In this document: positions 43,803-61,856 of the stretch, piece after piece
Layout of the letters: the number at the start of each line of letters is the position of its first letter
Position numbering within the stretch: the first letter of the stretch is position 1
NCBI GenBank assembly: GCA_002255935.1
Contig: NKIO01000008.1
Location: 1-64,000, forward strand
Direction: 5' to 3'
Length of the DNA stretch: 64,000 nucleotides
Source: Comamonadaceae bacterium PBBC2
GTDB lineage: Bacteria; Pseudomonadota; Gammaproteobacteria; Burkholderiales; Burkholderiaceae_C
Translations under genes and position numbers: made by a program
The notes under the pieces: generated by a model
Databases searched by the model: none
What the model was told of the DNA's origin: nothing
What the model saw: only the letters and a program-made list of their open reading frames with translations

Positions 43803-45028
43803 GGGGTGACTTCGTGGGTGGATACGAGGGGTAGGCGCAGTGTGGCCAACATGCCGCTGGGCTCCTGGGTTTGCAGCGTGAAGCTGCCTGCAGTGCCATA
43901 GGCCAATTGCACGCGCTCTTTCAAATTGCTCAGGCCCACACCCAGTGTGGTGGGCAAGGATTCTCCGGCGCCGGTGTCGCGCACATCGATCTGGTACTGC
44001 GCGCCCTGCTCGGTCACCACCACGTCTATCGTGCCACCGCGCAGCGCGGGCTCAATGCCGTGCTTGATCGCGTTCTCCACCAGTGTCAGCACCAGCATGC
44101 CGGGAATGCGTACATCAGCCAGCGCGGGCGGCAAGCTCAGGCTGAATTGCAGGCGGTTGCCCAGGCGGGTTTTCATCACCTTGAGGTAAGCCTCGATCAA
44201 AGCCAGCTCGGCCTGTAGCGTGACGTGCTCGGTGCGCATGTCGCCCAGGCTAGCGCGCAAAAAGGTAATCAGATTAGCGGTCAGCTCGGCCGCGCGCGGC
44301 GATTCGGTTTGGGCCAGCTGTTGTACCGCGCCCAGGGTGTTGAACAAGAAGTGCGGTTCGATTTGCGCTTGCAACAATCGAAGCCGGGTTTCGCTGAGCT
44401 GGCGGGCTAGGCGTTCTTGCTCGGCTTGCATCTGCAGCTTGGTGGTCAGCATCTCGTATTCGCGGTTGCGCCAGGTGGACACTGCGCCGTAGATGATGGA
44501 ATAAAAAGTGCCGACACCGATGCCAGCGATCAACAAGGTGCGCCCGATTTTTTCCATCATTGCGGCGACGGATCGGCCATCCACAAAGGCCGACAGACTG
44601 GCACCGACCAGAGCACCCAGTGTGGCCAGAGCGACCACTTTCAAAAATGACGTCACGCTGGCCGCAGGTATGCGCCGGTAGTTGAACCACATGCTGACAA
44701 AACCGACGACGCTGCACAGGCCTAGCGCATGGGTCACCACCAAGGCCTCCAGCAGGCTGAACTTGGCGGGGAACATGAAGTGCAGGGCCAGTGCCATGGC
44801 AGACAGGGCCAGCAACAGTTTGCCCAGTGCAAGGTAACCCTTTAAACCCCGGTACTTCAGCGTGAAGGCGTGCACCTGCTGGCGCTCAATGGTGGACATT
44901 TTGGCCAAATGCTCAGCCATGCGGCGGCGGTAGCCGGGCTGGACAGTGTTGAGGCGAGCCGGGTCCTGCAAGACTTGCAGAATCTCGTCTTCCCAATCGC
45001 GGTGCCATTGCGTGATGCTTTTGAACAT
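43799..45028 (-). CDS. LytS-type membrane sensor histidine kinase (His_kinase family)
   Basis: 409 residues from ATG 45028, which has GAGGAAACC directly upstream; the frame opens 7 codons earlier without support. Four transmembrane segments (~70-90, 95-117, 132-150, 163-185) precede a coiled coil and the His_kinase motif QAQIEPHFLFNTLGAVQQL (His226), then an HATPase with LVLTLVENAIKHGIEPALRG and GVGLSNLKERV. It phosphorylates the co-encoded LytTR regulator. Confidence 0.9.
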   Translation of the reverse strand: MFKSITQWHRDWEDEILQVLQDPARLNTVQPGYRRRMAEHLAKMSTIERQQVHAFTLKYRGLKGYLALGKLLLALSAMALALHFMFPAKFSLLEALVVTHALGLCSVVGFVSMWFNYRRIPAASVTSFLKVVALATLGALVGASLSAFVDGRSVAAMMEKIGRTLLIAGIGVGTFYSIIYGAVSTWRNREYEMLTTKLQMQAEQERLARQLSETRLRLLQAQIEPHFLFNTLGAVQQLAQTESPRAAELTANLITFLRASLGDMRTEHVTLQAELALIEAYLKVMKTRLGNRLQFSLSLPPALADVRIPGMLVLTLVENAIKHGIEPALRGGTIDVVVTEQGAQYQIDVRDTGAGESLPTTLGVGLSNLKERVQLAYGTAGSFTLQTQEPSGMLATLRLPLVSTHEVTP

Positions 45029-45171
45029 GGTTTCCTCTATTGCAACCACCCTGGTGGGGGCAAGGCGCGAGTCTAGACAAGGGCCGTGCTTTTAGCTTGC
45101 ATGCCGCGATGGGTTACGACTTGGCGAGGGTAGGCGACGAAAGACGGTAGTTTTTTGAGTTAGAAATGTCG

Positions 45172-47120: not shown

Positions 47121-50090
47121 ATGACCATATCGCCCTCCCCCCGCCAGAAAGGCGGCAAGCATGCGGCTTTCCGCATAGCGCCTTTGGCGGCGGCTTGCGC
47201 CCTGCTGATCGCCCAGACCAGTGGTGCCAATGCCCAGCAAGCACCCGAAGCCACCAAAGACGGCAAAGCCCTGCAAACGGTGGTCGTGACCGGCATCCGC
47301 AGCAGCCTGGATTCCGCAATGAACCTCAAGCGGGACTCGCAAGGCGTGGTGGACGGCATCAATGCAGAAGAGATCGGCAAGTTCCCGGATACCAACCTGG
47401 CGGAATCTCTGCAGCGCATCAGCGGTGTGTCGATTGACCGCTCCATTGGTGAAGGCTCCAAAGTAACAGTGCGCGGCGTCGGCCCCGACTTCAATATGGT
47501 TTTGCTCAATGGCCGCCAAATGCCTGCGTCCAGCCTGGCCGATACCGGCCCTTCTAACTCCCGCGCGTTTGACTTCGCCAATCTGGCATCCGAAGCGATT
47601 GCCGGTATTGAGGTGTACAAGACCAGCCGCGCCAGCACACCGGCCGGTGGCATTGGCGCAACGATCAATATCAAGACAGCGCGCCCTCTGGGCAGCCCAG
47701 CGGTGGCCAACATCGGCTTCAAGGAAGTCTTTGACACGTCCAACGGCAACCTGCCCGGCCACTTGCAAGGCAAGAGCGCCACGCCCGAAATCTCCGGCAT
47801 TTACAGCGACACCTTTGCCGATGGCAAGTTCGGTATCGCCATCAGCGCCAGCCACCAAGAGCGCAGCCTGGGCTACAACCAAGCCGGTGTGCCCAATGGC
47901 TGGCGCGCAGTGAATCCGAACAGCAACGACTGGGGCAGTGTTGCAAACTCCCAGCGGCCTGCGCCGGATGTTCTGTACTCCACGCCGCAGAACCCCAACT
48001 ACTCGATGACTAGCGTTCAGCGCCAACGTGACAATGGTCAGCTGACCCTGCAATACGCGCCCAGTAGCGATATCAAAGCCACCCTGGACTACACCTATTC
48101 GCAGAACAAGCTGCAAAGCCGCCGCAATGACTTGGGCGTGTGGATGAACTTTGGTGGTGACGTGACCAAAGCCACCTGGACCAATGGCTTGGTGGCCGGA
48201 CCCAACATCTACACCGAAGCCTATGGAAATCCTGGCGACGTGGCCATGGGTGCGGCCGAGTTCGCCACCCGAAATGAGAACAAATCACTCGGCTTCAACG
48301 TCGAATGGAAGGTCTCAGACCGGCTGAAGTTTGAAGTGGATGCACATCGCTCTACGGCCGAATCTTCGCCGGACAGCCCTTACGGTTCCAGTGCGGTTCT
48401 GGGTGGAGCCCAGTTCACACGTACCGGCGTATCCGTTGACTTTAGCAAGGATTTCCCAGCCATTAGCATTTCAGGTGGTGACGTTGACCCATCCAAAATG
48501 ATGGTGACGGGATCGTCTTTCCGCAATAGCTATATGCTCGCGCAGATTGAGCAGTTGCAGGTTAAAGGTAGCTTCAAGATCGACGAAGACTCCGGCCTGA
48601 ATTTCGGCCTGAGCAGCACCAAGGCCGACAACCGGTCTGCCTATGCCAACGTGGACAATGGCGCATGGGGTGGTCAGGGTAACGAGTCGAACTACGCTGA
48701 CAGCTCATGGCGCAAAGACACTCTGCGTCAGTACTTCTCCAAGATCAGCGGCAGCGATAACCCGGCCCTGTATAACCAAATTCTGTTTGGTGATTTCGCC
48801 AGCCTGCGCGCGCAGGCGATCACACAGTCCGGTCACCCTGAGTGGTATGTGGCACCCTCCACTTACACCACGGATCGCCGTGTGACAGAAAAGTCCACCA
48901 GCGGATATGTCCAGTACAACAGAGACTGGGATTCCGCTATGCCGATTCACACTGCCATCGGCTTGCGCTATGAGAAAACCGACGTTGTGTCCTCCGCGTT
49001 GGTGCCCACCGCAACAGGCATTATCTGGGGCAGTAACAACGAGTACACGGTGACTTTTGGCACGCCAGGTTTCACCACGCTGGAAGGCAGCTATAGCTAC
49101 CTGTTGCCTAGCTTGGACTTTGATATCGATTTGTCCAAGGACCTGAAATTCCGCGCCAGCTACGGTGAAACCATCGGCCGCCCGGGTTGGGGTGACATTC
49201 AGGGCGGGCAAACTTTGGATGGCCTGGCGCGTGTGAACGGTGGCACGGGTGGTCAGGGCAACCCCGCACTTAAACCATTGAAGTCAAAGAACATCGACTT
49301 CTCGTTGGAGTGGTACTACGCCAAGGGCAGCTTTGCGTCGATTGGTTACTTCCGCAAGGACATCGAAAACTACATCGGCAACTCCCAGACAACCGCCACA
49401 CCATTCAACCTGCACACGCCCGCAAATGGCCTGTTCTGGAACGAGGCGGTGGCGAAGGGATGCGCGGCAACAGACATCACTTGTATCCGCAACTACATCT
49501 TCAAGAACAAAAATGGCCAGGCCGGTGTCGTACGCGGACCGGATGATGCCAACGGCAACCAGACTGGCACTATTGCGGGCCAAGCGGGAGACCCGATTGC
49601 GACGTTCCTGATCAATACACCGTCCAACCAGAAGTCCGACACTCTGAATGGCTGGGAGTTGAACCTTCAACACATGTTTGGCGCGAGTGGTTTTGGTGTA
49701 TCTACCAACTACACCAAGGTGAGCTCGGGTCTGAAGTTTGACAACCGTGTCACGGCTGAGCAGTTTGCGCTGTTGGGCGTGGGTGATTCTGCCAACTTGG
49801 GCGGCTTCTATGAAAACGACAAATGGTCGGTGCGTGCGGCCTACAACTGGCGCGGTGAATTCCTGTCCTCATTGTTCGATGGCTCGGGAGCCAACCCGAT
49901 GTACACCGAGGCCTATGGCCAGCTGGACTTCAACGTCGGCTACAAGTGGGACAAGCACTTGAGCTTGCAGTTTGAAGCCATCAACTTGAACGACGGCATC
50001 CAGCGCCTGCATGGACGTTCAAGCACCCAGGTGGACTTTGTGACTCAAACTGGACCACGTTACATGGTCGGAGCACGCTACAAGTTCTGA
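47121..50090 (+). CDS. TonB-dependent receptor of the beta-glucan locus
   Basis: 989 residues from ATG 47121 (GGAG about 10 bases upstream; the frame begins at 47034 within the operator). A signal peptide ends near SGANAQQ. The TonB box is LQTVVVTGIRSSL. Plug: DGINAEEIGKFPDTNLAESL, QRISGVSIDRS, GSKVTVRGVGPDFNMVLLNG and FDFANLASEAIAGIEVYKTS. The barrel ends GPRYMVGARYKF. This plug type (EEIGKFPDTNLAESLQR) is the one seen in Caulobacter/Xanthomonas-type carbohydrate TonB receptors that accompany tryptophan-halogenase-like genes. Ligand by context: beta-glucan oligosaccharides. Confidence 0.93.
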   Translation: MTISPSPRQKGGKHAAFRIAPLAAACALLIAQTSGANAQQAPEATKDGKALQTVVVTGIRSSLDSAMNLKRDSQGVVDGINAEEIGKFPDTNLAESLQRISGVSIDRSIGEGSKVTVRGVGPDFNMVLLNGRQMPASSLADTGPSNSRAFDFANLASEAIAGIEVYKTSRASTPAGGIGATINIKTARPLGSPAVANIGFKEVFDTSNGNLPGHLQGKSATPEISGIYSDTFADGKFGIAISASHQERSLGYNQAGVPNGWRAVNPNSNDWGSVANSQRPAPDVLYSTPQNPNYSMTSVQRQRDNGQLTLQYAPSSDIKATLDYTYSQNKLQSRRNDLGVWMNFGGDVTKATWTNGLVAGPNIYTEAYGNPGDVAMGAAEFATRNENKSLGFNVEWKVSDRLKFEVDAHRSTAESSPDSPYGSSAVLGGAQFTRTGVSVDFSKDFPAISISGGDVDPSKMMVTGSSFRNSYMLAQIEQLQVKGSFKIDEDSGLNFGLSSTKADNRSAYANVDNGAWGGQGNESNYADSSWRKDTLRQYFSKISGSDNPALYNQILFGDFASLRAQAITQSGHPEWYVAPSTYTTDRRVTEKSTSGYVQYNRDWDSAMPIHTAIGLRYEKTDVVSSALVPTATGIIWGSNNEYTVTFGTPGFTTLEGSYSYLLPSLDFDIDLSKDLKFRASYGETIGRPGWGDIQGGQTLDGLARVNGGTGGQGNPALKPLKSKNIDFSLEWYYAKGSFASIGYFRKDIENYIGNSQTTATPFNLHTPANGLFWNEAVAKGCAATDITCIRNYIFKNKNGQAGVVRGPDDANGNQTGTIAGQAGDPIATFLINTPSNQKSDTLNGWELNLQHMFGASGFGVSTNYTKVSSGLKFDNRVTAEQFALLGVGDSANLGGFYENDKWSVRAAYNWRGEFLSSLFDGSGANPMYTEAYGQLDFNVGYKWDKHLSLQFEAINLNDGIQRLHGRSSTQVDFVTQTGPRYMVGARYKF

Positions 50091-50099
50091 TAGCGGATG

Positions 50100-50125
50100 G
50101 CCATTGCAGCTTCGGCTGCAATGGC
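50100..50125 (+). terminator. Stable hairpin with TTCG loop after the TonB receptor gene
   Basis: A perfect 11-bp stem GCCATTGCAGC/GCTGCAATGGC closed by a TTCG tetraloop, 10 bases after the TonB-receptor stop. It is not followed by a T-run, so it more likely protects the receptor mRNA 3' end than terminates transcription. Confidence 0.6.
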
Positions 50126-50144
50126 TCCACAATGCGATAGCAAC

Positions 50145-50175
50145 AAAAAAGCCACTGACCACCAGCGGCTTTTTT
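50145..50175 (+). terminator. Rho-independent terminator/attenuator inside the TonB-halogenase unit
   Basis: A 13-bp stem AAAAAAGCCACTG/CAGCGGCTTTTTT with one A-C mismatch and a 5-base loop, ending in a T-run. It lies 26 bases before the first halogenase start. It should limit transcription from the TonB receptor into the downstream genes, so that the receptor is made in excess. Confidence 0.7.
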
Positions 50176-50201
50176 ATTGGTACAACACGAGGTAGATACG
50201 G

Positions 50202-51755
50202 GTGAACGAGGCGGTCAAACACATCGTGATTGTGGGCGGTGGATCAGCAGGCTGGCTGGCCGCCGGCGTGATCGCGGCCGAGCATTGCAGTGCCTCAGAC
50301 GCGGGCCTGCGCGTGACTTTGCTGGAATCACCGGATGTGGCGCCCATTGGTGTGGGCGAAGGCACCTGGCCCACCATGCGTGACACGCTGCACAAAATCG
50401 GAGTCTCAGAAACAGACTTCTTTCGCGAGTGCGACGCATCGTTTAAGCAGGGTTCACGTTTCAATGGTTGGGTGAATGGCAGGGCAGATGACCACTACTT
50501 TCACCCCTTTGTACTGCCACAAGGTTATGGAGAAACCGACCTGGTATCAGGCTGGTTGCAGCAATATGCGCAGCTGCCATTTGCCGACCTGGTGAGCTTT
50601 CAGCCGCATCTGTGTGTGCATGGCAAGGCGCCCAAACAAAAGGGCACACCCGAGTACGCCGCAGTGGCCAACTATGGTTACCACCTGGACGCGAGCAAGT
50701 TTGGGCAGTTCTTGCGCAAGCATTGCACTGAGAAGCTGGGCGTGCGCCATGTGCTGGACCACATGACCGGCATTCATACGCACGAGAACGGCGACATTGC
50801 CTCACTGCAAACCCAGGCGAACGGTGCATTGGAGGGCGATCTGTTTATCGATTGCACCGGCATGCAGTCTCTGTTGCTGGGCAAGCATTACCAGATTCCG
50901 TTTCTGTCGCAGAAGCATGTTCTATTCAATGACACGGCCATGGCGTTGCAGATTCCGTATGCGGATGAGAACACCCCCATCGCGTCGCAAACCATCTCTA
51001 CCGCGCAAGACAGCGGCTGGATTTGGGATATCGGATTGCCTACGCGCCGTGGTACTGGCTATGTGTATTCCAGTGCGCACACTACCGATGAAGCCGCACA
51101 GCAGGCCCTGCATAGCTACACAGTGCAGACCGGTGGACCCATCAACCCTGGCACGCCGCGCAAGCTGACTTTCAAGCCTGGCTACCACAGCAAGTTCTGG
51201 CACAAAAATTGTGTCGCCATTGGTCTGTCTGCGGGTTTCATCGAACCGCTGGAGGCATCGGCCCTGGCCTTGGTAGAGCTTTCCGCCAGTATGCTCAGTG
51301 ATGAGATGCCAGCTACGCGTTCGGGGATGGAGTTAGCGGCCAAGCGTTTCAATGATGCATTCATTTACCGCTGGGAACGCGTCATTGACTTCCTCAAGCT
51401 GCACTATGTGCTGACCCAGCGGACCGACTCCGACTACTGGCGCGACAACTGCCAACCCGAGGGTATTCCAGAGCGTTTGCAAGAGCTGCTGGTGCTGTGG
51501 CAGCACCAGAGTCCGTCCCGCTACGACTTGGCGCGCATTGACGAAGTATTCCCATCGGCTAGTTACCAGTATGTGTTGTATGGCATGGGTTTTCGCCCAA
51601 AGCAAAGGCCCACTGTGCGGCGCACGGATGACACTGCCGCCGCAATGACCTACTTCCAGGAAGCCGCCAGCTTGACGCGCAAGATGCTGGCCGCGCTGCC
51701 CGACAACCGCGAACTCATTACGCATATTCAGCGCAATGGAATGCTGAAAATTTGA
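50202..51755 (+). CDS. Flavin-dependent tryptophan-halogenase-like protein 1
   Basis: 517 residues from GTG 50202 (CGAGG at a spacing of 9). FAD-binding IVGGGSAGWLAAGV and the second flavin motif VGEGTWPTM are present. Lys82 in ASFKQGSRFNGW corresponds to the catalytic lysine of PrnA/RebH, and the FIEPLEAS block carries the catalytic glutamate region. The family WxWxIP motif reads WIWDIGLP, with one extra residue, so halogenation chemistry is less certain here than in the paralogue at 53.5 kb. Such proteins at TonB-receptor loci are not linked to a known secondary metabolite. Substrate unknown. First gene after the attenuator. Confidence 0.85.
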   Translation: MNEAVKHIVIVGGGSAGWLAAGVIAAEHCSASDAGLRVTLLESPDVAPIGVGEGTWPTMRDTLHKIGVSETDFFRECDASFKQGSRFNGWVNGRADDHYFHPFVLPQGYGETDLVSGWLQQYAQLPFADLVSFQPHLCVHGKAPKQKGTPEYAAVANYGYHLDASKFGQFLRKHCTEKLGVRHVLDHMTGIHTHENGDIASLQTQANGALEGDLFIDCTGMQSLLLGKHYQIPFLSQKHVLFNDTAMALQIPYADENTPIASQTISTAQDSGWIWDIGLPTRRGTGYVYSSAHTTDEAAQQALHSYTVQTGGPINPGTPRKLTFKPGYHSKFWHKNCVAIGLSAGFIEPLEASALALVELSASMLSDEMPATRSGMELAAKRFNDAFIYRWERVIDFLKLHYVLTQRTDSDYWRDNCQPEGIPERLQELLVLWQHQSPSRYDLARIDEVFPSASYQYVLYGMGFRPKQRPTVRRTDDTAAAMTYFQEAASLTRKMLAALPDNRELITHIQRNGMLKI

Positions 51756-51773
51756 TTTCCAACAAGAAGCACC

Positions 51774-52484
51774 ATGCCACACCCTGTACTACTCAACAAC
51801 GTTGACCACAAAGACCTGCGCGTCATCACTACGCGCGGCGCGCAGTACGGCGACAACGTGATGACCGCCTTGACGTTTCCGCATGAGTTTCGCAGTCTGC
51901 AGGCGCACTACCCCATCGTATTTTTCAAATCGGAAGATGGCACCAGTTTTCACTCGGCCGCATTGCTGGGCTTTCAGGAGAATGAAAACCTGTTTCTGAA
52001 CCAGGATGGCTGGGACGCTACCTATATTCCACTGACCATTGCGCGCCAGCCGTTTTTGATAGGCAATGCCAAGGGCGAGATGCTGTTGCATGTGAACCTG
52101 GAGAGCCCCAGGGTCAGCCGTACCCAGGGAGAGCCCTTGTTTCTGGAGTACGGTGGAAACACGGACTTTCTGGAGCAGATGAGCTCCGCGTTGCGCACTA
52201 TCCACGATGGCCTGGAGCTGGTACCCGCCTTCAGTGCGGCATTGATGGAGCTGAATCTGCTGGAGTCTTTTGTATTTGATGTGCAGTTGTTGGATGGATC
52301 GCAACACCGGTTGGCAGGGTGCTACACCATCAACGAGGAGCGACTCCATGCACTTGGTGGCCAGGTGTTGGAGCAATTGAGCCGCGCTGGCTTTTTGCAA
52401 CCCATCTATATGGTGATTGCATCGCTGTCCAATCTGAGCGCACTGGCAGAACGCAAGCGCCGCACCCATGCTACCCATCGCTAA
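51774..52484 (+). CDS. SapC-like protein
   Basis: A 236-residue soluble protein with the SapC family blocks: LTFPHEFRSLQAHYPIVFFK, SAALLGFQENENLFL, GWDATYIPLTIARQPFLIG and EPLFLEYGGNTDFLEQM. SapC was named from an S-layer secretion context, but homologues near TonB receptors and tryptophan-halogenase-like genes have no known activity. Starts 18 bases after halogenase 1. Its 3' end overlaps the cupin gene by 17 bases. Confidence 0.85.
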   Translation: MPHPVLLNNVDHKDLRVITTRGAQYGDNVMTALTFPHEFRSLQAHYPIVFFKSEDGTSFHSAALLGFQENENLFLNQDGWDATYIPLTIARQPFLIGNAKGEMLLHVNLESPRVSRTQGEPLFLEYGGNTDFLEQMSSALRTIHDGLELVPAFSAALMELNLLESFVFDVQLLDGSQHRLAGCYTINEERLHALGGQVLEQLSRAGFLQPIYMVIASLSNLSALAERKRRTHATHR

Positions 52485-53481
52485 GTCCGTCCGCACGTTG
52501 ACTGGGCTTGATCCACAGGCCCTGCCCGACGAAGTCCTGCGCTCTACCCAGCCGCTGGTACTCAAAGGCTTGGTGTCGCATTGGCCGATGGTGCAAGCTG
52601 CAAAGCAGTCGCCCAGTGCTGCCGCGCAGTACCTGCGCAGTTTCTACCGCGGAGCCATCGTCGAAGCGTTTTTTGGAGCGCCCCAGTTTGGCGGGCGGTT
52701 TTTCTACAACGATGACCTGACGGGTTTCAACTTTCATCCGGAGCGGCTCAAGCTGGACGCGGTTTTGGATGAAATCGACCGCTTTGCTCGGGATGCCCAA
52801 CCACCGGGTATCTATGTCGGCTCCACCACCGTGGAAACCTGCTTGCCGGGCTTTCGCGATCACAACGATGTGGACCTGGGCGACCGGCAAGCACTGGCCA
52901 GTGTCTGGATCGGAAACCGCACGCGCATTGCGGCGCACTATGACGCGCCCGACAACATCGCTTGCGTTGCAGCTGGGCATCGCCGGTTTACCTTGCTTCC
53001 TCCGGAGGCGCTGGAGAATCTGTATGTGGGTCCGTTGGACCTGACACCGGCAGGGCAACCCATCAGCCTGGTGGATTTTGCGAATCCGGATCTCAAGAAG
53101 TTCCCTAAATTCGAACAAGCTCTGCAGAGCGCCCAGGTGGCCGAAATGGAGCCAGGGGATGCGATCTTCGTTCCGAGTATGTGGTGGCACCACGTTGAAG
53201 CGCTGGATACGTTTAATGTGCTGGTGAATTACTGGTGGCGGCAGTCGCCCGACTATGTCGATCCCGCGATGAATGCCCTGATGCTGGCTCTCATGAGTGT
53301 GCGGGATTTGCCGGCCGAACAGCGCAAGGCCTGGGCCAATCTCTTTAACCACTATGTGTTTGAAGCCGACAGTGAAACCTCTGCCCATATTCCGCTAAAT
53401 GCGCGGCGTGCATTGGGTCCTATGGATGCGAATACGACACGCATGTTGCGGGCGCAACTACTCAAAAAATTGAACCGCTGA
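52468..53481 (+). CDS. Cupin_8/JmjC-like Fe(II) oxygenase family protein
   Basis: A 337-residue protein with the JmjC/cupin_8 double-stranded beta-helix. The metal-binding triad is readable: HxD at His157/Asp159 (AAHYDAPDNIACVAAGHRRF) and a distal His at 241 or 242 in FVPSMWWHHVEAL. GHRRFTLLPPEALENLYVG and EMEPGDAIFVPSMWWHHVE are family-typical. Probably a 2-oxoglutarate-dependent hydroxylase acting on a protein or small molecule. It overlaps sapC by 17 bases and is followed by halogenase 2 after 14 bases, so tight co-translation is implied. Confidence 0.85.
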   Translation: MLPIAKSVRTLTGLDPQALPDEVLRSTQPLVLKGLVSHWPMVQAAKQSPSAAAQYLRSFYRGAIVEAFFGAPQFGGRFFYNDDLTGFNFHPERLKLDAVLDEIDRFARDAQPPGIYVGSTTVETCLPGFRDHNDVDLGDRQALASVWIGNRTRIAAHYDAPDNIACVAAGHRRFTLLPPEALENLYVGPLDLTPAGQPISLVDFANPDLKKFPKFEQALQSAQVAEMEPGDAIFVPSMWWHHVEALDTFNVLVNYWWRQSPDYVDPAMNALMLALMSVRDLPAEQRKAWANLFNHYVFEADSETSAHIPLNARRALGPMDANTTRMLRAQLLKKLNR

Positions 53482-53495
53482 CAGGAGACAAAAAA

Positions 53496-55010
53496 TTGAA
53501 CAACACAGAGCAGACAGACGGGGACCGAAAGCCGGTGCGGCGCATCGTCATTGCCGGTGGTGGAACGGCGGGCTGGATGGTTGCAGCCCTGATGTCTAAG
53601 ACACTGGGCAAGTCGCTGGATATCAAGCTGGTGGAGTCGGACGAGATTGGCACCGTTGGAGTCGGTGAAGCCACTATTCCCACGTTGCTGACGTTCCATG
53701 AACTGCTCGAAGTGAACGAGCAGGAGTTCATGGTCGCTACCCAGGCCACGTTCAAGCTGGGTATCAGTTTTGAGAACTGGCGCAATGTCAACGAAGACTA
53801 CGTTCACTCCTTTGGAACTACCGGCACAGACCACTGGACGGCCGGGTTTCAGCACTTCTGGCGCAAGGGCAGGGAGCGTAACCTAGCCGGGGACTATGGA
53901 GACTATTGCCTGGAGCTGAAAGCTGCTTTGGCAAACCGCTTTGCACATTTACCGCGCAATGGCATGAACTACGCCTTCCATCTGGATGCCACCCTGTACG
54001 CCAAGTTTTTGCGCAAGTACAGCGAAGGCTTTGGCGTGAAGCGCATTGAGGGCAAGATTGTGGAGGTGAAGACCGACGCAAGCAGCGGCAATATTCAATC
54101 GATCAAGCTGGACTCCGGTGCCAACATCGAAGGCGATTTGTTCATCGATTGCACCGGCTTTCGCGGTTTGTTGATCGGGGAGACGCTGAAGGTCGAGTAC
54201 CAGGACTGGTCGCATTGGCTCTTCAACGACAGCGCCGCTGCGGTGCAGACGGAATCGGTGGGTGCGGCGCTGCCTTACACCCGCTCCATCGCCCACACTG
54301 CGGGTTGGCAGTGGCGCATTCCATTGCAGCATCGGGTTGGCAATGGTCTGGTCTACAGCAGCCGCTACATGGATGATGAGCAAGCCAAACAAACGCTGAT
54401 GGGCAACCTCCAGGGGCAAGCCCTGATGCAACCTCGGGTGTTGAAATTCAGACCCGGACAGCGCGAAAAGACGTGGCACAAAAACTGTGTCGCCATTGGT
54501 TTGTCCAGCGGCTTTATTGAGCCGTTGGAGTCCACCAGCATTCACCTGATCCAGCGCGGCATCATTCGCCTGATGCGCCTGTTCCCGGTGCGTGGCATTT
54601 GCCAGGCCGACGTCAATGAATACAACCAGCAAACGCTGGACGAGATTGAACACATCCGCGACTTTGTAGTGCTGCATTACAAAGTGACGAACCGTGCCGA
54701 CTCACCGTATTGGAATGCCTGCCGCACGATGGAGGTCCCTGCATCGCTACAGCACCGTATTGATTTATTCCGTGAGACGGGGCGCGTGTTCCGCATTGCC
54801 AGCGAGTTGTTTGCCGAGAACTCCTGGATTCAGGTGATGTTGGGCCAGGGCATCATGCCCAAGGAGCACCACCAGTCGGCCGACCTAATGGGCGACGCGG
54901 AGTTATCGCGCTTCCTGGGCGGGATCAAGTCCACCGTGGATCGAACGGTCGCGCAACTGCCCAGCCACCAAACCTATGTTCAACAATACTGCGGCGCAGC
55001 CAAGGTTTAA
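53496..55010 (+). CDS. Flavin-dependent tryptophan-halogenase-like protein 2
   Basis: 504 residues from TTG 53496, preceded by AGGAG at a spacing of 8. All family markers are intact: IAGGGTAGWMVAALM, VGVGEATIPTLLTFHELL, catalytic Lys87 in ATFKLGISFENW, the canonical WxWxIP as GWQWRIPLQHRVGNG, and FIEPLESTSIHLIQ. This suggests a competent FADH2-dependent halogenase, unlike protein 1. No flavin reductase gene is next to it. Free tryptophan is not necessarily the substrate; homologues from TonB-linked loci can act on indoles. The stop is 2 bases before the sugar-binding protein start. Confidence 0.88.
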   Translation: MNNTEQTDGDRKPVRRIVIAGGGTAGWMVAALMSKTLGKSLDIKLVESDEIGTVGVGEATIPTLLTFHELLEVNEQEFMVATQATFKLGISFENWRNVNEDYVHSFGTTGTDHWTAGFQHFWRKGRERNLAGDYGDYCLELKAALANRFAHLPRNGMNYAFHLDATLYAKFLRKYSEGFGVKRIEGKIVEVKTDASSGNIQSIKLDSGANIEGDLFIDCTGFRGLLIGETLKVEYQDWSHWLFNDSAAAVQTESVGAALPYTRSIAHTAGWQWRIPLQHRVGNGLVYSSRYMDDEQAKQTLMGNLQGQALMQPRVLKFRPGQREKTWHKNCVAIGLSSGFIEPLESTSIHLIQRGIIRLMRLFPVRGICQADVNEYNQQTLDEIEHIRDFVVLHYKVTNRADSPYWNACRTMEVPASLQHRIDLFRETGRVFRIASELFAENSWIQVMLGQGIMPKEHHQSADLMGDAELSRFLGGIKSTVDRTVAQLPSHQTYVQQYCGAAKV

Positions 55011-55012
55011 GC

Positions 55013-56287
55013 ATGCACAACAATCAGACGCAATTTGGCTTGAATCGCCGCACAGTGTTGGCCACCGGCGCCCTCGCTGCCGCAGGCGTACGCGCTCAGT
55101 CGCCCATCGTCATCAACGTCGCTGCATTCCCTTTGGTGGATGAAATCGCGCGGGCTGCGCTTCCGTTGTTTCGCAAACTGCACCCTAATGTCGAAGTCAG
55201 GATTCAAACCCGGCAATACCAGGATCACCACACGGCCATGACCACGGCCTTATCAACTTCTGGCAGCTTGCCTGATGTGATGGTGCTGGAGGCCAGTTTT
55301 TTAGGCCGGTTTTCTCAGGGCGGTGGGCTCGAAGATCTCAACAGTGAACCCTATGCCATCGGGCGTTTCAAGGATCGCATGGTGCCCTTCGCCTACCAGC
55401 AGGCCACCAACCGCAAAGGTGCGGTGGTGGGGATGCCCACCGACATTGGTCCAGGCACCTTGCTGTACCGCAAGGACATTCTGGATCGCGCAGGCGTAAG
55501 CGAGGAAGACTTGACCCGATCCTGGGACAGCTATGTGGCGGCTGGTGTGCGCATCAAGGCCAAAACGGGTGCCTATCTGATCGGTACGGTGCAAAGCGTT
55601 AAAGACATCCTGATCCGATCGGGCATACAACCCGGCGAGGGTCAATACTTTGACAAAGACTCCAACGTGCTGGTTACCTCGGACCGTTTTGTACGCGCTT
55701 TTGAAGTGGCCCGGGAAGCGCGCAGCAATAAGCTCGATGCGCGCAATACAGCCTGGTCTAACGAATGGGCCGAGGGTTTTAAGCGCGGCACCGTGGCCAC
55801 CGAAGTGACAGGTGCCTGGATGGTCGGACAGCTCAGCAATTGGGTTGCCCCAAAAACAACCGGCTTGTGGCGCGCTGCCGCCTTGCCCGAAGGCTCTACG
55901 GTGTCCTATGGTGGCTCGTTCTATGCCATTCCACGGCGCTCCGACCCCAGCCGCAAGGCGCTGGCCTGGGAGTTCATTCAATTCATGACCCTTGACCGCG
56001 ATCGCCAGCTGGAGGCATTCACCAAATACGACGCCTTCCCCGCCCTGCTGGATGCGCACAACGCGCCGTTTTTTGAGGAACCACTGGAGTTTTTGGGTGG
56101 GCAAAAGGCGCGCATTTTGTGGCGTGACACGGCCCGCAAGATCACCGCGGTACAGACGCACAAGCAAAGCCCGTTTGCTGACGAAGTCATCAATACCGAG
56201 CTGGACAAAGTGATGCTCAACGGCAAAAGTATTCGCACCGCCTTGGCCGATGCACAGCGCCTGCTGGAGCAGCGCGCACACCGCTAG
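55013..56287 (+). CDS. Sugar ABC transporter substrate-binding protein (CUT1 type)
   Basis: A 424-residue SBP_bac_1 protein with an N-terminal Arg-Arg export signal (LNRRTVLATGALAAAGVRAQ). Typical blocks are PDVMVLEASFLGRF, VVGMPTDIGPGTLLYRKDIL and SYGGSFYAIPRRSDPSRKAL. It delivers oligosaccharides to a MalFGK-type permease. The permeases and ATPase are encoded in the convergent minus-strand operon at 59.4-63.7 kb, not next to this gene. By context the ligand is a beta-gluco-oligosaccharide. Confidence 0.9.
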   Translation: MHNNQTQFGLNRRTVLATGALAAAGVRAQSPIVINVAAFPLVDEIARAALPLFRKLHPNVEVRIQTRQYQDHHTAMTTALSTSGSLPDVMVLEASFLGRFSQGGGLEDLNSEPYAIGRFKDRMVPFAYQQATNRKGAVVGMPTDIGPGTLLYRKDILDRAGVSEEDLTRSWDSYVAAGVRIKAKTGAYLIGTVQSVKDILIRSGIQPGEGQYFDKDSNVLVTSDRFVRAFEVAREARSNKLDARNTAWSNEWAEGFKRGTVATEVTGAWMVGQLSNWVAPKTTGLWRAAALPEGSTVSYGGSFYAIPRRSDPSRKALAWEFIQFMTLDRDRQLEAFTKYDAFPALLDAHNAPFFEEPLEFLGGQKARILWRDTARKITAVQTHKQSPFADEVINTELDKVMLNGKSIRTALADAQRLLEQRAHR

Positions 56288-56354
56288 ACCTCTTTCCATT
56301 TTTACCCCCCCACTTCAATCCACGGTGCGCCTGTCGGCGGCCAGAAAGCTCTCT

Positions 56355-57230
56355 ATGTCAAGATTCTCTTCTTCGTCCATTTGGCTCGCGCTATTGACCT
56401 TGACCGCCTGTGGCGGTGCTGGTGGTAGTACGCCCGCTATCCCAGAACCCACGACACCTGCACCTATGACCACAACACCCACCACGATTTCTGTGCCGTC
56501 TGACCATGTGCTGGTTTGGGCAGATGAGTTTGCAATCGATGGCCTGCCGGACGCCACCAAGTGGGTCCATGAAACGGGCCGAAATAAGGAGGGTTGGTAC
56601 AACAACGAGAAGCAGTATTACAGCGGCCCGCGTCTGGAGAATGCTCGCGTGCACGACGGCGTGCTCACCATCACCGCACGCAAGGAAGCCCGCTCGAACC
56701 AGGCCGACTGGGGAGGCCAAGCCTATTCGTCCACACGCCTGGCGACGCTGGGCAAGAAAGACTGGACCTACGGCTTTTTTGACATCCGGGCCAAGTTGCC
56801 CTGCGGCAAGGGTACGTGGCCAGCCATCTGGATGCTGGGCAGCCAAGGTACCTGGCCAGCCCAAGGCGAACTTGACATCATGGAATGGGTGGGGAGCCGT
56901 CCTGAGCGCATGTTTAGTACCGTGCACACCACCTCGGGTAGTGGCGGCAATGGAAAAGGCGCGGACACAGCGGTAGCGGATGCCTGCAACACGTTTCACA
57001 ACTACCAGATGTACTGGACGGCGCAAGAGATCAGTTTTGCAGTCGATGGCAAGGTGCACTTCACCTACAAAAACCCAGGCACTGGTTTGAACGCTTGGCC
57101 TTTTGACGCGCCGCAGTTCATGATTTTGAATGTGGCGATTGGCGGAGATTTGGGCGGTGCCATAGACGATGCCATTTTCCCGGTGCAGATGGATGTTGAA
57201 TACGTCCGTATTTACCAAAAAACCAAATGA
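56355..57230 (+). CDS. GH16 endo-beta-1,3-glucanase (laminarinase-like), lipoprotein
   Basis: 291 residues from ATG 56355. A lipoprotein signal with LTAC (Cys19) is followed by a Thr/Pro-rich linker (~25-47) and a GH16 domain: WYNNEKQYYS, YGFFDIRAKLP, WPAIWMLGSQG and the catalytic ExDxxE as GELDIMEWVG (Glu172 nucleophile, Asp174, Glu177 acid/base). It probably sits at the outer membrane and cuts beta-1,3-glucans to oligomers for the TonB receptor. It overlaps the deacetylase start by 4 bases (ATGA). The frame opens earlier at 56250, but that lacks a signal. Confidence 0.92.
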   Translation: MSRFSSSSIWLALLTLTACGGAGGSTPAIPEPTTPAPMTTTPTTISVPSDHVLVWADEFAIDGLPDATKWVHETGRNKEGWYNNEKQYYSGPRLENARVHDGVLTITARKEARSNQADWGGQAYSSTRLATLGKKDWTYGFFDIRAKLPCGKGTWPAIWMLGSQGTWPAQGELDIMEWVGSRPERMFSTVHTTSGSGGNGKGADTAVADACNTFHNYQMYWTAQEISFAVDGKVHFTYKNPGTGLNAWPFDAPQFMILNVAIGGDLGGAIDDAIFPVQMDVEYVRIYQKTK

Positions 57231-58066
57231 GGCGCGGTGTTTTCGCGCTGATCGCGGCCATTGCTGTTGCCACCCCCTGGGCTGTGGCTGCCCAGTCACC
57301 CCTGAAACCTTGGGTATGGCCCCACAAGGCCCGCGCCGCCGTCAGTCTGGCTTATGACGATGCGCTGAATTCGCAACTGGACTTTGCCATACCAGCCTTG
57401 AACCGACATGGCCTGAAAGCCAGTTTTTATCTCACCCTGGGCAGTGAAACCGTGAGCCAGCGCTTGGCGGACTGGAGAAAGGCGGCAGCGCAGGGCCACG
57501 AGCTGGGCAACCATACCCTGTTTCATCAGTGCTCGCGCTCGGCTCCCGACCGTGACTGGGTCAGCGTCGACAATGATCTGGACACCACCAGTGTGGGCCG
57601 CCTGGTGGCTCAGATTCGTGTCGGCAATACGTTATTGCACGCCATCGATGGCCAACGTGTGCGCACCTTCACAACGCCGTGTGGTGATTTGAATGCTGCG
57701 GGTGAGCCCTATCTGAAAGAAATTCAGGGTGACTTCGTTGCCATGAAGACCAAGTTTGGTGGCCTAGTGTCTGATATGAGCACACTCGACCCCCATGCCG
57801 TGGGTATTGAGGTGCCTTCAGACGTTTCAGGGCAACAATTGATTGCCTTGGTGCAACGTGCTGCGGCGGCTGGCACTATGGTGAATATTACGTTTCACGG
57901 TGTGGGCGGAGACCATCTATCGGTGTCCCGCCAAGCCCATGAAGAACTGCTGAAGTACTTGGCCAGCCACCGCGATATTTATTGGACGGACACCTTCATC
58001 CACATCATGCAATACGTGAAAGCCCAGCGCCTGAAAGCGCCGCCCGCTAGCTCACCACAAAAGTAG
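57227..58066 (+). CDS. Polysaccharide deacetylase-family protein (CE4-like), exported
   Basis: A 279-residue protein with a signal peptide (ALIAAIAVATPWAVAAQS). The CE4/NodB motifs are present in slightly changed form: AYDDA (Asp44/Asp45, for TFDDG), HxxxH as NHTLFH (His96, His100), and a C-terminal ITFHGVGGDH. The usual RxPxG third motif reads TTPCGD. Deacetylation of an acetylated glucan, or of chitin-like material, is possible; no family member with a fixed beta-glucan role is known to me. It converges on the GH30 gene and overlaps its 3' end by 20 bases. Confidence 0.8.
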   Translation: MRRGVFALIAAIAVATPWAVAAQSPLKPWVWPHKARAAVSLAYDDALNSQLDFAIPALNRHGLKASFYLTLGSETVSQRLADWRKAAAQGHELGNHTLFHQCSRSAPDRDWVSVDNDLDTTSVGRLVAQIRVGNTLLHAIDGQRVRTFTTPCGDLNAAGEPYLKEIQGDFVAMKTKFGGLVSDMSTLDPHAVGIEVPSDVSGQQLIALVQRAAAAGTMVNITFHGVGGDHLSVSRQAHEELLKYLASHRDIYWTDTFIHIMQYVKAQRLKAPPASSPQK

Positions 58067-59411
58067 CAATAGCCCGCGCCGGTAGGCTGGCCGCACAGTG
58101 GGCTTCTTGCACCCGCAGTGTGAAGGCAATGGCGTTCTCCGTGCGGTTCATCACCACCACCGCGGTGCTCCCATCCGGGTTCACAAACGCGGTAGTTTCC
58201 AGATCCTGGCGGCTGGCGGCGCACAGCACGCGGTGTGCGCCGGGCTTTACAAAGCGGCTGAAATGGCCGATGTAGGCAAAGGAGTTTTGGTGCTGCAGTG
58301 TGCCGGTGGCGCGGTCCGCCAAAATCGGCGCGCTGCACAGATTGCCCACGTGGTTAGGCCCACCGGTTTCGTCCAGCAACAAGTTCCAGTCAATCCAGCC
58401 GGTGGTCCAGCGGTTCAGATCATTGATCATGGAGCGGGCATAGCGCTCACCCAGCGCCCATGAGCCATGGTGCGGGCCACCTTCCTGGCAGCCTTCGGTG
58501 AACAGCAGCGCCTTGTCAGGCCAGGCATCGTGCACCAGTTGCACATGGTCAAAATGGTCTTCACCGTACCAGTGAAAGCCGCAGCCCCACACATACTGCG
58601 CAGCCTTGGGATCCGAATACACCACGCTGGCGCGCTCCACCATCAGATCGCGGTTGTGGTCCCAGATGACAATCTTGATATGCCCCAAGCCAGCTTGCGC
58701 TAGCGCAGGACCGAGGTGGTCGCGCACAAAGTCACGCTCTTCTTCGGCGGTGTAAATGCAGGAGTCCCAACGCTGCACGGCCATGGGCTCGTTTTGCACC
58801 GATACGCCCCACACCGGCACACCTTCAGCCTCGTATTCGTGTATGAAGCGCACAAAGCACTGGGCCCAGGCTGGCGCATAGGCTGGCAGCAGCTTGCCAC
58901 CGTGGTTCATCTCGCCATTGGACTTCATCCAGGCCGGTGGGCTCCAGGGCGACACCAGCAACTGCAGGGGCCGTGCGGACACCTTTTGTGCTGCCTTAAT
59001 AAAAGGCAGCAGCGCTTCGCGGTCCCGGTCAATGCTGAAGTGTTTCAAATCCACATCGCCCGCCACTTCGGTATGGGCATAGTTGCCCAGCGAGAAGTCG
59101 CAACTGTTCATGTGCACCCGGCACAGGCTGTAGCCATGGCCTTGCGTCGGGTGAAAGTAGTCTTTCAATACCTGGTCCGCCTGCGCTGTGGGCAGGGCCT
59201 TCCAAGTCACCGCAGAGGCCTCCGTAAATGCGGCGCCAAAGCCCAAGACTTCCTGAAACTTGCGGCTCGGGTTGACCAACACATGGGGCGGGTCCAACGG
59301 AGCTAGTGTGCTGCTGTCCAGCGTCAAAAGGGCTTGTGGCGCAAGGTGTGGCCCACTGTCTTTAGCGGTTAAAAAATGCTGAACAGCGGTACGGGTTGCG
59401 GAGGAGTTCAT
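58047..59411 (-). CDS. GH30 family glycoside hydrolase (beta-glucosylceramidase/glucanase type)
   Basis: A 454-residue protein: QEVLGFGAAFTEASAVTW, SPWSPPAWMKSNG, acid/base Glu208 in VSVQNEPMAVQRWDS, nucleophile Glu306 in LLFTEGCQEGG, and a C-terminal beta-sandwich. GH30 members hydrolyse beta-1,6- or beta-1,3-linked glucose or glucosylceramide. No signal peptide is present, so it acts in the cytoplasm on imported oligosaccharides, perhaps beta-1,6-branched ends (inference). Its start overlaps the ATPase stop by 4 bases. Last gene of the minus-strand operon. Confidence 0.9.
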   Translation of the reverse strand: MNSSATRTAVQHFLTAKDSGPHLAPQALLTLDSSTLAPLDPPHVLVNPSRKFQEVLGFGAAFTEASAVTWKALPTAQADQVLKDYFHPTQGHGYSLCRVHMNSCDFSLGNYAHTEVAGDVDLKHFSIDRDREALLPFIKAAQKVSARPLQLLVSPWSPPAWMKSNGEMNHGGKLLPAYAPAWAQCFVRFIHEYEAEGVPVWGVSVQNEPMAVQRWDSCIYTAEEERDFVRDHLGPALAQAGLGHIKIVIWDHNRDLMVERASVVYSDPKAAQYVWGCGFHWYGEDHFDHVQLVHDAWPDKALLFTEGCQEGGPHHGSWALGERYARSMINDLNRWTTGWIDWNLLLDETGGPNHVGNLCSAPILADRATGTLQHQNSFAYIGHFSRFVKPGAHRVLCAASRQDLETTAFVNPDGSTAVVVMNRTENAIAFTLRVQEAHCAASLPARAIATFVVS

Positions 59412-60481
59412 GCGAGTAAAAGTCCTTGGCTATCGAATGCCAGCGCCTTGGACGACGCATGGGGAGTGGCACCTGTGAGCAGACCGACGGCTTGCCCAGC
59501 GGCCAGTGCGCCTTCGTGGCTTGCAATCTTGGCAATCAGCAATGCCGCAATACCATCAACGCGCAAATGCACCATGGCCGAGTCTCCGAGTTGCTCCACC
59601 AGCTCGACCGTGGCGCGTACGCCCTGCTCGGGTGAGCCTACGCTGACATGCTCCGGGCGAATGCCGACGCGTCGCGCATCGGGGTGTGCGCTCTGGGTCA
59701 AACTCTTCCACAACTCCACGTGGGGCATGGGCGCTTTGCCCGCTTCGGGCCGGTCGATGAAGTTGATGCGGGGTGAACCGATGAAGCCCGCTACAAATTC
59801 GTTCGCGGGCCGACTGTACAGGTCCATAGGCCCGCCAATTTGCTCGATCTTGCCCTGGTTGAACACGGCAATGCGGTCGCCCATGGTCATGGCTTCCACC
59901 TGATCATGGGTCACGTAAATCATTGTGGTGCGCAGCTCTTTGTGCAGGCGTGACAGCTCAATGCGCATATTCACCCGCAGCGCTGCGTCCAGATTGGACA
60001 AAGGTTCATCAAACAAAAACACCTTGGGCTTGCGCACAATGGCGCGGCCAATGGCTACGCGCTGGCGTTGCCCGCCAGACAGCTCTTTGGGGTAGCGGCC
60101 AAGCAAATCGGTGATGCGCAAAATCTCCGCCGTACGCCCCACTTGTTCATTGCGCTGGGCCTTGGATACCCCGGCCATCTTGAGTGCGAAGCCCATGTTC
60201 TCCGCCACCGTCATGTGGGGGTACAGCGCGTAGCTTTGGAACACCATGGCGGCACCCCGGTCGGCGGGGCGCATGTCGTTGGCGCGCACGCCGTCGATCA
60301 GCAAGTCGCCGCCGGTAATGGTTTCCAGACCGGCAATCATGCGCAGTGTGGTGGACTTGCCGCAGCCCGAAGGCCCAACGAAGACGAGGAACTCGCCCTC
60401 AACCACATCCAGGTCAATGCCCCGGATGACTTCTATCGCGTCGTAGCTTTTGCGGATCGCCCGCAGTGATACCTGGCCCAT
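59408..60481 (-). CDS. Sugar ABC transporter ATP-binding protein (MsmK/UgpC-like)
   Basis: A 357-residue CUT1 ATPase: Walker A GPSGCGKST (36-44), Q-loop FQSYALYPHM, signature LSGGQRQRVAIGRA (134 on), Walker B VFLFDEP (154 on), H-loop YVTHDQVEAMTMGD, and a C-terminal TOBE/MalK-type regulatory domain. It energises the two permeases encoded upstream (61.9-63.7 kb) and presumably works with the binding protein at 55.0 kb. It starts 20 bases after the GH1 gene. Confidence 0.93.
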   Translation of the reverse strand: MGQVSLRAIRKSYDAIEVIRGIDLDVVEGEFLVFVGPSGCGKSTTLRMIAGLETITGGDLLIDGVRANDMRPADRGAAMVFQSYALYPHMTVAENMGFALKMAGVSKAQRNEQVGRTAEILRITDLLGRYPKELSGGQRQRVAIGRAIVRKPKVFLFDEPLSNLDAALRVNMRIELSRLHKELRTTMIYVTHDQVEAMTMGDRIAVFNQGKIEQIGGPMDLYSRPANEFVAGFIGSPRINFIDRPEAGKAPMPHVELWKSLTQSAHPDARRVGIRPEHVSVGSPEQGVRATVELVEQLGDSAMVHLRVDGIAALLIAKIASHEGALAAGQAVGLLTGATPHASSKALAFDSQGLLLA

Positions 60482-60500: not shown

Positions 60501-61856
60501 TTAGCGAGCAGCCGTGCGCTGTGATTGTGGTTGGCCCAGGAAGTCCCGGTACCAGCGTGCACTGTCCTTCAGGGTACGTACTTGGGTGGCGTAGTCCACA
60601 TGCACGATGCCAAAGCGCTTTTCGTAGCCGGACGCCCATTCAAAGTTGTCCATCAAACTCCACACCATATAGCCCTTCATGCGCACGCCCTGGCGTATGG
60701 CTTCGCCCACTGCGGCAATGTGGTTCTGGATATAACTGGTGCGGTCTTGGTCGTGCACGCGTCCGTCTTGCATAGCATCTTTGAAGGCACCGCCGTTCTC
60801 TGTTACATACAAGGGAGGCACTGCATAGTCGCGGTGCATACGCACCAGCAGCTCGGTCAAACCTTCGGGGTAGACCTCCCAGTTCATGTCGGTCACTTCC
60901 AACCCGGTGGAGCCCGCTTTCCACGAGTTGTCGGCACTGATCACGGAGCGCGAGTAGTAGTTCACGCCCAAGAAATCAATCGGTACCGCAATATTTTTCA
61001 GGTCGCCCGCTTCCATCTTGGGCGCGTCCTCGCCCAGGTGGTCCAGCACATCTTGCGGGTAGCTGGCCTTGAACAGCGGGTCCATGTACCAGCGCAATAG
61101 TTTGCCGTCTTCCAGTTGGGTCTTTGCTTTGTCGGCATCGCTATCCGTGGCCGGGTGCATAGGCGACAGATTCAACACAATCCCCAACGAGGCTTGACTG
61201 CGCTGCGCGCGCAGGGCTTGCACGGCCAAGCCGTGGCTGAGCAGCAAGTGATGCGACACCTGGGCTGCGGTAGCGCGGCTTTTGATGCCCGGGGCAAACA
61301 CGCCCGACTCGTGCCCCAGTACCGCCACCACCCAGGGTTCGTTGTGCGTGGCAATCGAAGCCAGACGGTCGCCCATGCGGGCCTGAATGCCCTCGGCGTA
61401 TTCCACAAAGCGGTGCACGGTGTCGCGGTGCGCCCAGCCGCCGTTGGCTTGCAGCGCGTCGGGCAGGTCCCAATGGTTCAGCGTCAGATACGGTTTGATG
61501 CCCTTTTCCACCAAGCGGTCCACCAGGCGTTCGTAAAAGTCGAGCCCCTTGTCATTCCAGGCACCGGCACCGGTGGGGCGTACCCGCGGCCACGAAATGG
61601 AGAAGCGGTAGGCGTCCACACCCAGGTCCGCAATCATGTCTAGATCCGAAGACCAGCGCGCGTAGTGCTCGCACGCAATGTCGCCATTGCTGTTGTCGGC
61701 AATTGCCCCCGGCTGGCGGCAAAAGCTGTCCCAGATAGAAGGGCCTTTGCCATCTTGCAAGGCAGCACCTTCGATTTGGAACGCACTGGTGGCAACACCC
61801 CACACAAAGCTGTCCGGAAATTGGGATTTGGTAAGGGGTGGCACGGGCGTGGTCAT
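60501..61856 (-). CDS. GH1 beta-glucosidase
   Basis: A 451-residue protein: FPDSFVWGVATSAFQIEGAA, DAYRFSISWPRVRP, acid/base Glu173 in ATHNEPWVVAVLGHESG, nucleophile Glu353 in PLYVTENGGAF, and WSLMDNFEWASGYEKRFGIV. No signal peptide, so it is cytoplasmic. It releases glucose from imported beta-gluco-oligosaccharides. It sits between the permease and ATPase genes of the same operon. Confidence 0.95.
   Translation of the reverse strand: MTTPVPPLTKSQFPDSFVWGVATSAFQIEGAALQDGKGPSIWDSFCRQPGAIADNSNGDIACEHYARWSSDLDMIADLGVDAYRFSISWPRVRPTGAGAWNDKGLDFYERLVDRLVEKGIKPYLTLNHWDLPDALQANGGWAHRDTVHRFVEYAEGIQARMGDRLASIATHNEPWVVAVLGHESGVFAPGIKSRATAAQVSHHLLLSHGLAVQALRAQRSQASLGIVLNLSPMHPATDSDADKAKTQLEDGKLLRWYMDPLFKASYPQDVLDHLGEDAPKMEAGDLKNIAVPIDFLGVNYYSRSVISADNSWKAGSTGLEVTDMNWEVYPEGLTELLVRMHRDYAVPPLYVTENGGAFKDAMQDGRVHDQDRTSYIQNHIAAVGEAIRQGVRMKGYMVWSLMDNFEWASGYEKRFGIVHVDYATQVRTLKDSARWYRDFLGQPQSQRTAAR

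Follow-up and report, generated by a model that had tools for sequence, protein, structure and literature searches.

The 64,000-nucleotide stretch of DNA analyzed in this work (positions 1-64,000 of contig NKIO01000008.1 from Comamonadaceae bacterium PBBC2, hereafter the window) carries on its plus strand an operon in which four genes follow that of a TonB-dependent receptor (TBDT). The receptor (47121..50090; PF07715/PF00593) belongs to the TIGR01782 subfamily, scoring 627 bits against a cut-off of 310. Its open reading frame (ORF) is open from 47034, with Met30 (47121) in frame; a start at Met30 is likelier because a stretch resembling a signal peptide, judged by eye, comes after this residue. 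The receptor gene is followed by HAL1, a PF04820 flavoprotein related to PDB entry 2pyx with the motif WIWDIGL (50202..51755, GTG start; Pfam 388 bits); a SapC-family protein (PF07277; 51774..52484; Pfam 231.7 bits, cut-off 28.9); CUP8, a predicted Cupin_8/JmjC-type 2-oxoglutarate oxygenase related to FIH (52468..53481; Pfam 240 bits); and HAL2, a predicted flavin-dependent halogenase of the Xcc4156/BrvH group with the motif WQWRIPL (53496..55010, TTG start; Pfam 638 bits). All genes were present in the order, on the strand and with the motifs given in a preliminary description of this DNA. The same description had reported extremely tight junctions, a 17-base overlap and gaps of 2-18 bases, which is correct for the four genes and for the solute-binding protein (SBP) gene behind them (HAL1-SapC gap, 18 bases; SapC-CUP8 overlap, 17; CUP8-HAL2 gap, 14; HAL2-SBP gap, 2) but does not extend to the receptor, located 111 bases upstream of HAL1. 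HAL1 and HAL2 are the only two strong PF04820 genes detected by profile search in the PBBC2 genome (95% complete), where a third match reached 21 bits; SapC genes are two in this genome.

The arrangement was then compared across genomes. Named genomes were searched with a HAL2 profile, which yielded at least 564 relatives, and the best 80 loci of these were analyzed, a set that favours complete gene sets and in which some loci run off contig ends or are broken by the simple gene table. These loci span beta-, gamma- and alphaproteobacteria. The exact order TBDT-HAL1-SapC-CUP8-HAL2 was found in 50 of the 80 loci and TBDT-SapC-CUP8-HAL2, without HAL1, in eight, while some of the others have one gene more or fewer. 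The conserved order and the short median intergenic gaps (17, -8 and 13 bases) bore out the proposal that the four genes form one unit, and the link to TonB receptors stood as well, a receptor gene being present in 70/80 loci. Furthermore, in eight genomes examined as a whole, 21 of the 22 halogenases listed (out of 29) had a TIGR01782 receptor no more than 8 kb away, although the regions this close to such a receptor cover about 3.4% of the genome sequence at most. On these two grounds, the exact order and the proximity to TIGR01782 receptors, we consider that the gene arrangement is not due to chance. DUF6445 was observed as a further accessory in 9/80 HAL2-found loci (e.g. L099, 4344-5027; L181, 5877-6608); an HxD, a later His and an Arg occur in 17 aligned members, which would fit a third kind of 2-oxoglutarate iron oxygenase, and Pfam gives the family no function. 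One enlarged module (L251, 6061-14003) has SapC, CUP8, HAL2, DUF6445, HAL2, DUF6445 and HAL1 behind a single receptor.

The relationship with the receptor was studied on a FastTree phylogeny of 117 receptors, comprising 77 with SapC and a halogenase, 16 with only a halogenase (at 2.5 kb or less), four with neither according to the gene table, and 20 controls. The latter were taken from 46 module-less receptors and represent seven of the eight genomes, all seven of which carry module receptors as well. All 77 receptors with SapC and a halogenase grouped in one 88-row clade with a local support of 100, in which the PBBC2 receptor also falls, whereas all 20 controls were outside it, several of them on long branches. 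The clade includes receptors of galactoside loci with glycoside hydrolases of families 36 (GH36, L142) and 42 (GH42, L151). Within 6.5 kb of the 84 distinct clade receptors, SapC was found in 76 cases, CUP8 in 71 and both HAL types in 61, the HAL count being biased since most clade loci had been found through HAL2; SapC is thus the steadiest partner among the genes not used to find the loci. The composition of the module varies at clade loci, from HAL1 plus SapC or SapC plus HAL2 to SapC, CUP8 and HAL2 or the full set.

Searches starting from the receptor were performed on two overlapping sets of 200 (phylum-wide) and 369 (class-wide) genomes with E<=1e-120, scoring at most four and two candidates per genome, respectively, so that lower-ranked receptors fall outside their coverage. 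They yielded 29 distinct hits. The 20 hits scoring at least 929 bits all have SapC downstream, on the same strand and within 2.4 kb, and a halogenase adjoins all 20; six of them had served as rows of the search model and 14 had not, some of the latter being near relatives of rows. Taken together, these data indicate that, in the genomes searched, receptors of one TIGR01782 lineage almost invariably have SapC and one or more PF04820 enzymes encoded behind them, whatever glycan the locus appears to serve, the set being most often HAL1-SapC-CUP8-HAL2. A tight operon and co-inheritance would suffice to produce such congruent occurrence if the operon were inherited as a single sugar-uptake island whose receptor and enzymes are biochemically unlinked. 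We regard this hitch-hiking as quite unlikely, given that the member genes and the glycan genes both vary, while none of the 20 best hits of the receptor-first searches has the receptor without SapC.

The genes surrounding the operon define, from their content, a predicted beta-glucan-type locus in which GH16, GH30, GH1 and importer genes are present together. On the plus strand, HAL2 is followed by the SBP of a sugar ABC importer (55013..56287; PF13416/PF01547) and a GH16 enzyme (56250..57230; PF00722, 89 bits); a polysaccharide deacetylase-family gene (57227..58066; PF01522, 47 bits) begins a few bases before the GH16 gene ends and closes the plus-strand run, and relatives of it occur in 13/80 module loci. 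The minus strand carries a GH30 enzyme (58047..59411; PF02055, 276 bits), whose nearest NCBIfam model, NF053856 (endo-1,6-beta-glucanase), scored 268 bits, below its cut-off of 700; the importer ATPase (59408..60481; PF00005 plus TOBE_2), UgpC-type and above cut-off; a GH1 enzyme (60501..61856; PF00232, 527 bits); and two importer permeases (61911-62762 and 62752-63672; PF00528 in both). Glycosidases of this kind are frequent in the 80 HAL2-found loci (GH16 in 23, GH3 in 35, GH1 in 17, GH30 in two), and any of the four was present in 51/80, beta-glucan-type loci thus dominating among close HAL2 relatives.

The preliminary description had proposed that the module would co-occur with glucan genes, and this held in part. 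In the eight genomes, where a halogenase lies 8 kb or less from 17 of the 63 TIGR01782 receptors (22 of the 29 halogenases being listed), there was a modest excess of GH16 within 10 kb of halogenase-linked receptors (3/17 versus 0/46 of the others, p=0.017) and of GH3 (5/17 versus 2/46, p=0.013; p=0.052 at 20 kb). However, the association was not glucan-specific: 12 of the 17 had neither GH16 nor GH3 within 10 kb, and SapC-halogenase sets were also found beside a GH36 melibiase (L142), a GH42 beta-galactosidase (L151) and an SGL gene (L097), while receptor-halogenase pairs lacking SapC adjoin GH13 and GH31 enzymes (L236, L252, L243). A glucan-specific module was rejected as a general statement on the basis of the galactoside loci and of those 12 receptors. 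As the receptor clade serves beta-glucan-type, alpha-galactoside and beta-galactoside loci alike, the common factor of the module loci is the receptor and not the glycan. The lack of glucan specificity further argues against an aromatic compound bound to the glucan as the target, and in favor of the receptor or another surface protein.

The same observations bear on the possibility that the enzymes act on a small molecule, halogenating and hydroxylating an indole or phenol used in signalling, detoxification or defence that is brought in along with the glycan or produced by the cell, with the receptor importing the glycan or taking the product back up. HAL2 is closely related to BrvH and the Xanthomonas enzymes, and the available parts of two reports state that BrvH and three Xanthomonas enzymes use indole derivatives and not free tryptophan (PMC7336383, PMC5945002). 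Against it, the module accompanies receptors at loci for unlike glycans (GH16/GH3, GH36, GH42), and the eight clusters scanned out of the ten most frequent neighbours across the 80 loci are GH3, LacI, MFS (two clusters), GH1, glucokinase, DUF6445 and SSF, none of them biosynthetic. Besides, the activity of BrvH on indole is so low that, in the part of the report available, its authors doubt that indole is the natural substrate (PMC5945002). We therefore consider a small-molecule substrate rather unlikely.

No signal peptide was seen by eye in HAL1, SapC, CUP8 or HAL2, and hence the four proteins should be cytoplasmic. That such a module travels with one sugar-receptor lineage in many bacteria suggests that these four proteins, three of them from families of halogen- or oxygen-adding enzymes, modify the receptor or something belonging to it. 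The substrate might instead be another exported protein of the locus, such as the SBP, the GH16 enzyme or a surface lipoprotein, with the receptor as a mere neighbour; the SBP gene begins only two bases past HAL2, and SapC relatives accompany several kinds of exported proteins. Nevertheless, SBP-like genes were present in only 3/80 and GH16 in 23/80 of the HAL2-found loci, versus 70/80 for the receptor, which makes this alternative improbable.

With regard to the enzymes themselves, PF04820 proteins were gathered from the window and the fetched loci, and only those of 430-620 residues were kept (173 distinct proteins) and assigned to a HAL1-class or a HAL2-class by their BLAST score to PBBC2 HAL1 or HAL2, independently of any motif. 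We assumed for the catalytic Lys and Glu residues the roles they have in PrnA. HAL2 displays the full set of features of flavin-dependent halogenases, as had been anticipated: GxGxxG, the catalytic Lys87 and Glu342, and WxWxIP (WQWRIPL). In HAL2 proteins of module loci, Lys87, Glu342 and GxGxxG are invariant (81/81), and in the HAL2-class as a whole the catalytic Lys and Glu are retained in 101/102 proteins and WxWxIP in 97/102. The halide site of HAL2 has Ser in place of Gly, as do 73/81 relatives. Its nearest solved relative in the PDB is 6y1w (Xcc4156, 767 bits), followed by 9luq and 6frl (BrvH, 466 bits).

HAL1, whose nearest solved relative is 2pyx (594 bits over residues 2-516), also has GxGxxG and the catalytic Lys and Glu, but lacks WxWxIP, in line with the altered motif previously noted (WIWDIGL). 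From that alteration a catalytic/regulatory pair had been proposed, with HAL1 as the regulatory half. This part of the proposal did not hold and the pair was rejected. In the HAL1-class, GxGxxG, the catalytic Lys (Lys82) and the catalytic Glu (Glu348) are invariant in 71/71 proteins, so that both PF04820 enzymes retain their catalytic residues, and WxWDI[GA] (71/71; WxWDIG in 69, WxWDIA in two) is a clade signature that differs from WxWxIP by a single change on the PF04820 tree; a regulatory-partner role for HAL1 is consequently unsupported. The best NCBIfam match of HAL1 was QhpG, at 37.7 bits and far under the cut-off of 240. We assign HAL1 to PF04820 on its sequence and do not class it as a halogenase; it seems to be another active enzyme, perhaps with a different chemistry. 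A single genome may have many PF04820 matches, as in G210 (13) and G371 (11).

The catalytic sites are also relevant to a regulatory explanation, according to which the flavin and 2-oxoglutarate enzymes would act as sensors of oxygen, halide or redox state that govern receptor expression or assembly, any modification being incidental. FIH is itself an oxygen sensor, and regulatory genes are at hand: a LytTR response regulator and a histidine kinase are encoded upstream of the receptor on the strand opposite to the operon (43029-45049), and a LacI-like ORF, found by a profile match only, spans the end of the window (contig positions 63856-65232). However, the three enzymes have apparently full catalytic sites, and Pfam detected no DNA-binding domain in HAL1, SapC, CUP8 or HAL2; we hold a sensory role to be improbable.

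CUP8 matched FIH with an E value of 1.6e-18 over the iron site, and its nearest solved relatives are FIH, an asparaginyl hydroxylase, and JMJD5, both of which hydroxylate proteins. The iron triad HxD...H is present: His157 and Asp159 are conserved in 72/72 relatives, and the distal ligand is one of His241 (71/72) and His242 (60/72). Arg172 (72/72) occupies the place of the 2-oxoglutarate-binding Lys in the GYKR motif of FIH.

SapC had no match among PDB sequences at E<=1, and its AF2 model (pLDDT 93.8) found no PDB relative by Foldseek either (best E 0.15), so its fold may be new; a function could not be drawn from the fold and this approach was dropped. SapC was likewise rejected as a marker of the module, as a halogenase occurs in only about 14 of 119 SapC neighbourhoods, the PBBC2 locus not counted (13 flagged from the gene table, of which L068 is weak, plus L098 and L120, missed by the table). 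Elsewhere, among the few loci scanned, SapC adjoins exporters for large proteins of the cell surface. In 24 of 101 non-module SapC loci an ORF of at least 1000 amino acids, some possibly antisense, lies within two genes of SapC, and a handful of these neighbourhoods, chosen for their large neighbours and not at random, showed by Pfam ShlB/TpsB exporters, TolC-like OEP proteins and an RTX protein (L037, L123, L047, L086, L050). The second SapC gene of PBBC2 (L037, 7284-8300; G000:C82) is one of these. It is situated between a ShlB/TpsB-type exporter and a 3212-amino-acid ORF, cut by the end of the stretch retrieved, whose first 1200 residues have no Pfam match, a setting that resembles two-partner secretion. 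Long SapC variants of 546-653 amino acids were also observed (L149, L143, L145, L146, L135, L140), with an extension of some 300 or more residues without a Pfam match.

The occurrence of SapC beside exported surface proteins, together with two flavin enzymes of a group to which others attribute peptides or other larger substrates and an FIH-like oxygenase, fits a tailoring of the receptor before export. We therefore propose, tentatively and with a confidence that falls somewhat short of an even chance, that the operon tailors the receptor, or a protein bound to it or both made and exported with it, in the cytoplasm before it crosses the inner membrane. The substrate would most likely be the receptor polypeptide, since it is the lineage of the receptor that stays constant, whereas the glycan does not. 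HAL2 would halogenate an aromatic side chain, and its kinship points to bromination; a further flavin-dependent oxidation, either a halogenation or a hydroxylation, would fall to HAL1; CUP8 would act on a residue in the manner of FIH, hydroxylating it; and the export-bound substrate would be held by SapC as an adaptor. The modification might tune glycan binding or the surface stability of the receptor. In agreement with a large substrate, the available parts of the reports on Xcc4156 and BrvH describe open active sites for which the authors suggest a peptide or another larger substrate (PMC7336383, PMC5945002).

Candidate target residues were sought in the receptor, whose AF2 model (mean pLDDT 74.8) matched TonB receptors by Foldseek with a best E of 9e-27. 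At 36 positions, conservation reaches 95% or more among the 88 clade receptors but 40% or less among the 29 others; Trp665 is present in 91% of receptors inside the clade and 3% outside. By eye the model has 23 strands, and strand parity is ambiguous in its N-terminal half, for which reason no membrane side is claimed for Trp370. The more ambitious version of tailoring before export, a dedicated pathway that halogenates and hydroxylates sugar receptors (e.g. at Trp370, Trp545, Trp665 or Trp939) with SapC as adaptor, is in our opinion unlikely.

Several observations weigh against a tailoring of the receptor. First, tryptophan is not enriched at clade-specific positions (3/36, namely 370, 545 and 939, versus 5/121 conserved positions), so that it was dropped as a clade-specific target residue, and the conserved tryptophans 370, 545, 665 and 939 could simply bind sugar. 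In addition, receptor hits at 907 and 919 bits lacked SapC (0/2), and of seven lower hits only two had it; in three of those five misses the contig breaks off downstream (G126:C9, G238:C9, G393:C70), and the other two are real (G505, G393:C50). Halogenases do not require the module receptor lineage, since they were also found no more than 2.5 kb from eight receptors that fall outside the clade (in one case on the opposite strand and in another upstream). Most clade loci came to light via HAL2, a bias that only the receptor-first count escapes, and co-inheritance of an operon can make genes track together without acting on each other. Finally, no halogenated or hydroxylated receptor was found in the material searched, and the available parts of the literature describe HAL2 relatives as active only on indole-type model compounds (PMC7336383, PMC5945002).

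To our knowledge, protein halogenation, if found here, would add a new kind of modification to those described for bacterial proteins, and the operon would represent an enzymatic protein-halogenation system tuning nutrient receptors. If the receptor were unmodified, a deletion strain would point to a small molecule instead. According to the parts of the reports available, the native substrates of BrvH, Xcc4156 and their relatives have not been established (PMC7336383, PMC5945002), and the coupling to one receptor lineage and SapC turns this question into a direct experiment on the mass of the receptor.

Comparable gene sets occur in Xanthomonas and Caulobacter, and SapC and halogenase genes are reportedly placed in N-acetylglucosamine loci of Xanthomonas; as a control, Caulobacter vibrioides matched the SapC, PF04820 and TIGR01782 profiles. 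HAL1 shares WIWDIGL with 2pyx, an unpublished JCSG entry named as a tryptophan halogenase, and it is not a member of the family of QhpG, its best NCBIfam match (37.7 bits, as indicated above), a flavin monooxygenase that hydroxylates a tryptophan of a peptide. CUP8 shares the HxD and WWHH iron-site region with FIH and JMJD5, although its alignment with FIH is confined to residues 154-262 and it is bacterial and encoded next to a receptor. HAL2 aligns over almost its full length with Xcc4156 (6y1w) and BrvH (6frl) and has WxWxIP like them. Within the part of the report available, the Ser in place of Gly at its halide site is shared by BrvH and two other X. campestris enzymes, whereas Xcc4156 itself has Asn (PMC7336383). 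Regarding the genetic setting, the word TonB does not appear in the available text of the papers on Xcc4156 and BrvH (PMC7336383, PMC5945002). The locus resembles the carbohydrate-utilisation (CUT) systems with TonB receptors of Xanthomonas and Caulobacter in its TIGR01782 receptor, glycosidases, LacI-like regulator and importer, but a word search of the available text of the report on plant-carbohydrate TonB receptors gave no halogenase, SapC, Pass1 or cupin (PMC1790865). Likewise, a literature search that reached few subscription papers gave none joining halogenases to TonB receptors in glycan use. Altogether, halogenases of the HAL2 group, FIH-like proteins and TonB sugar receptors are individually known already; what is new, as seen from gene neighbourhoods, is that one receptor lineage is so tightly coupled to SapC and halogenases although the glycans differ.

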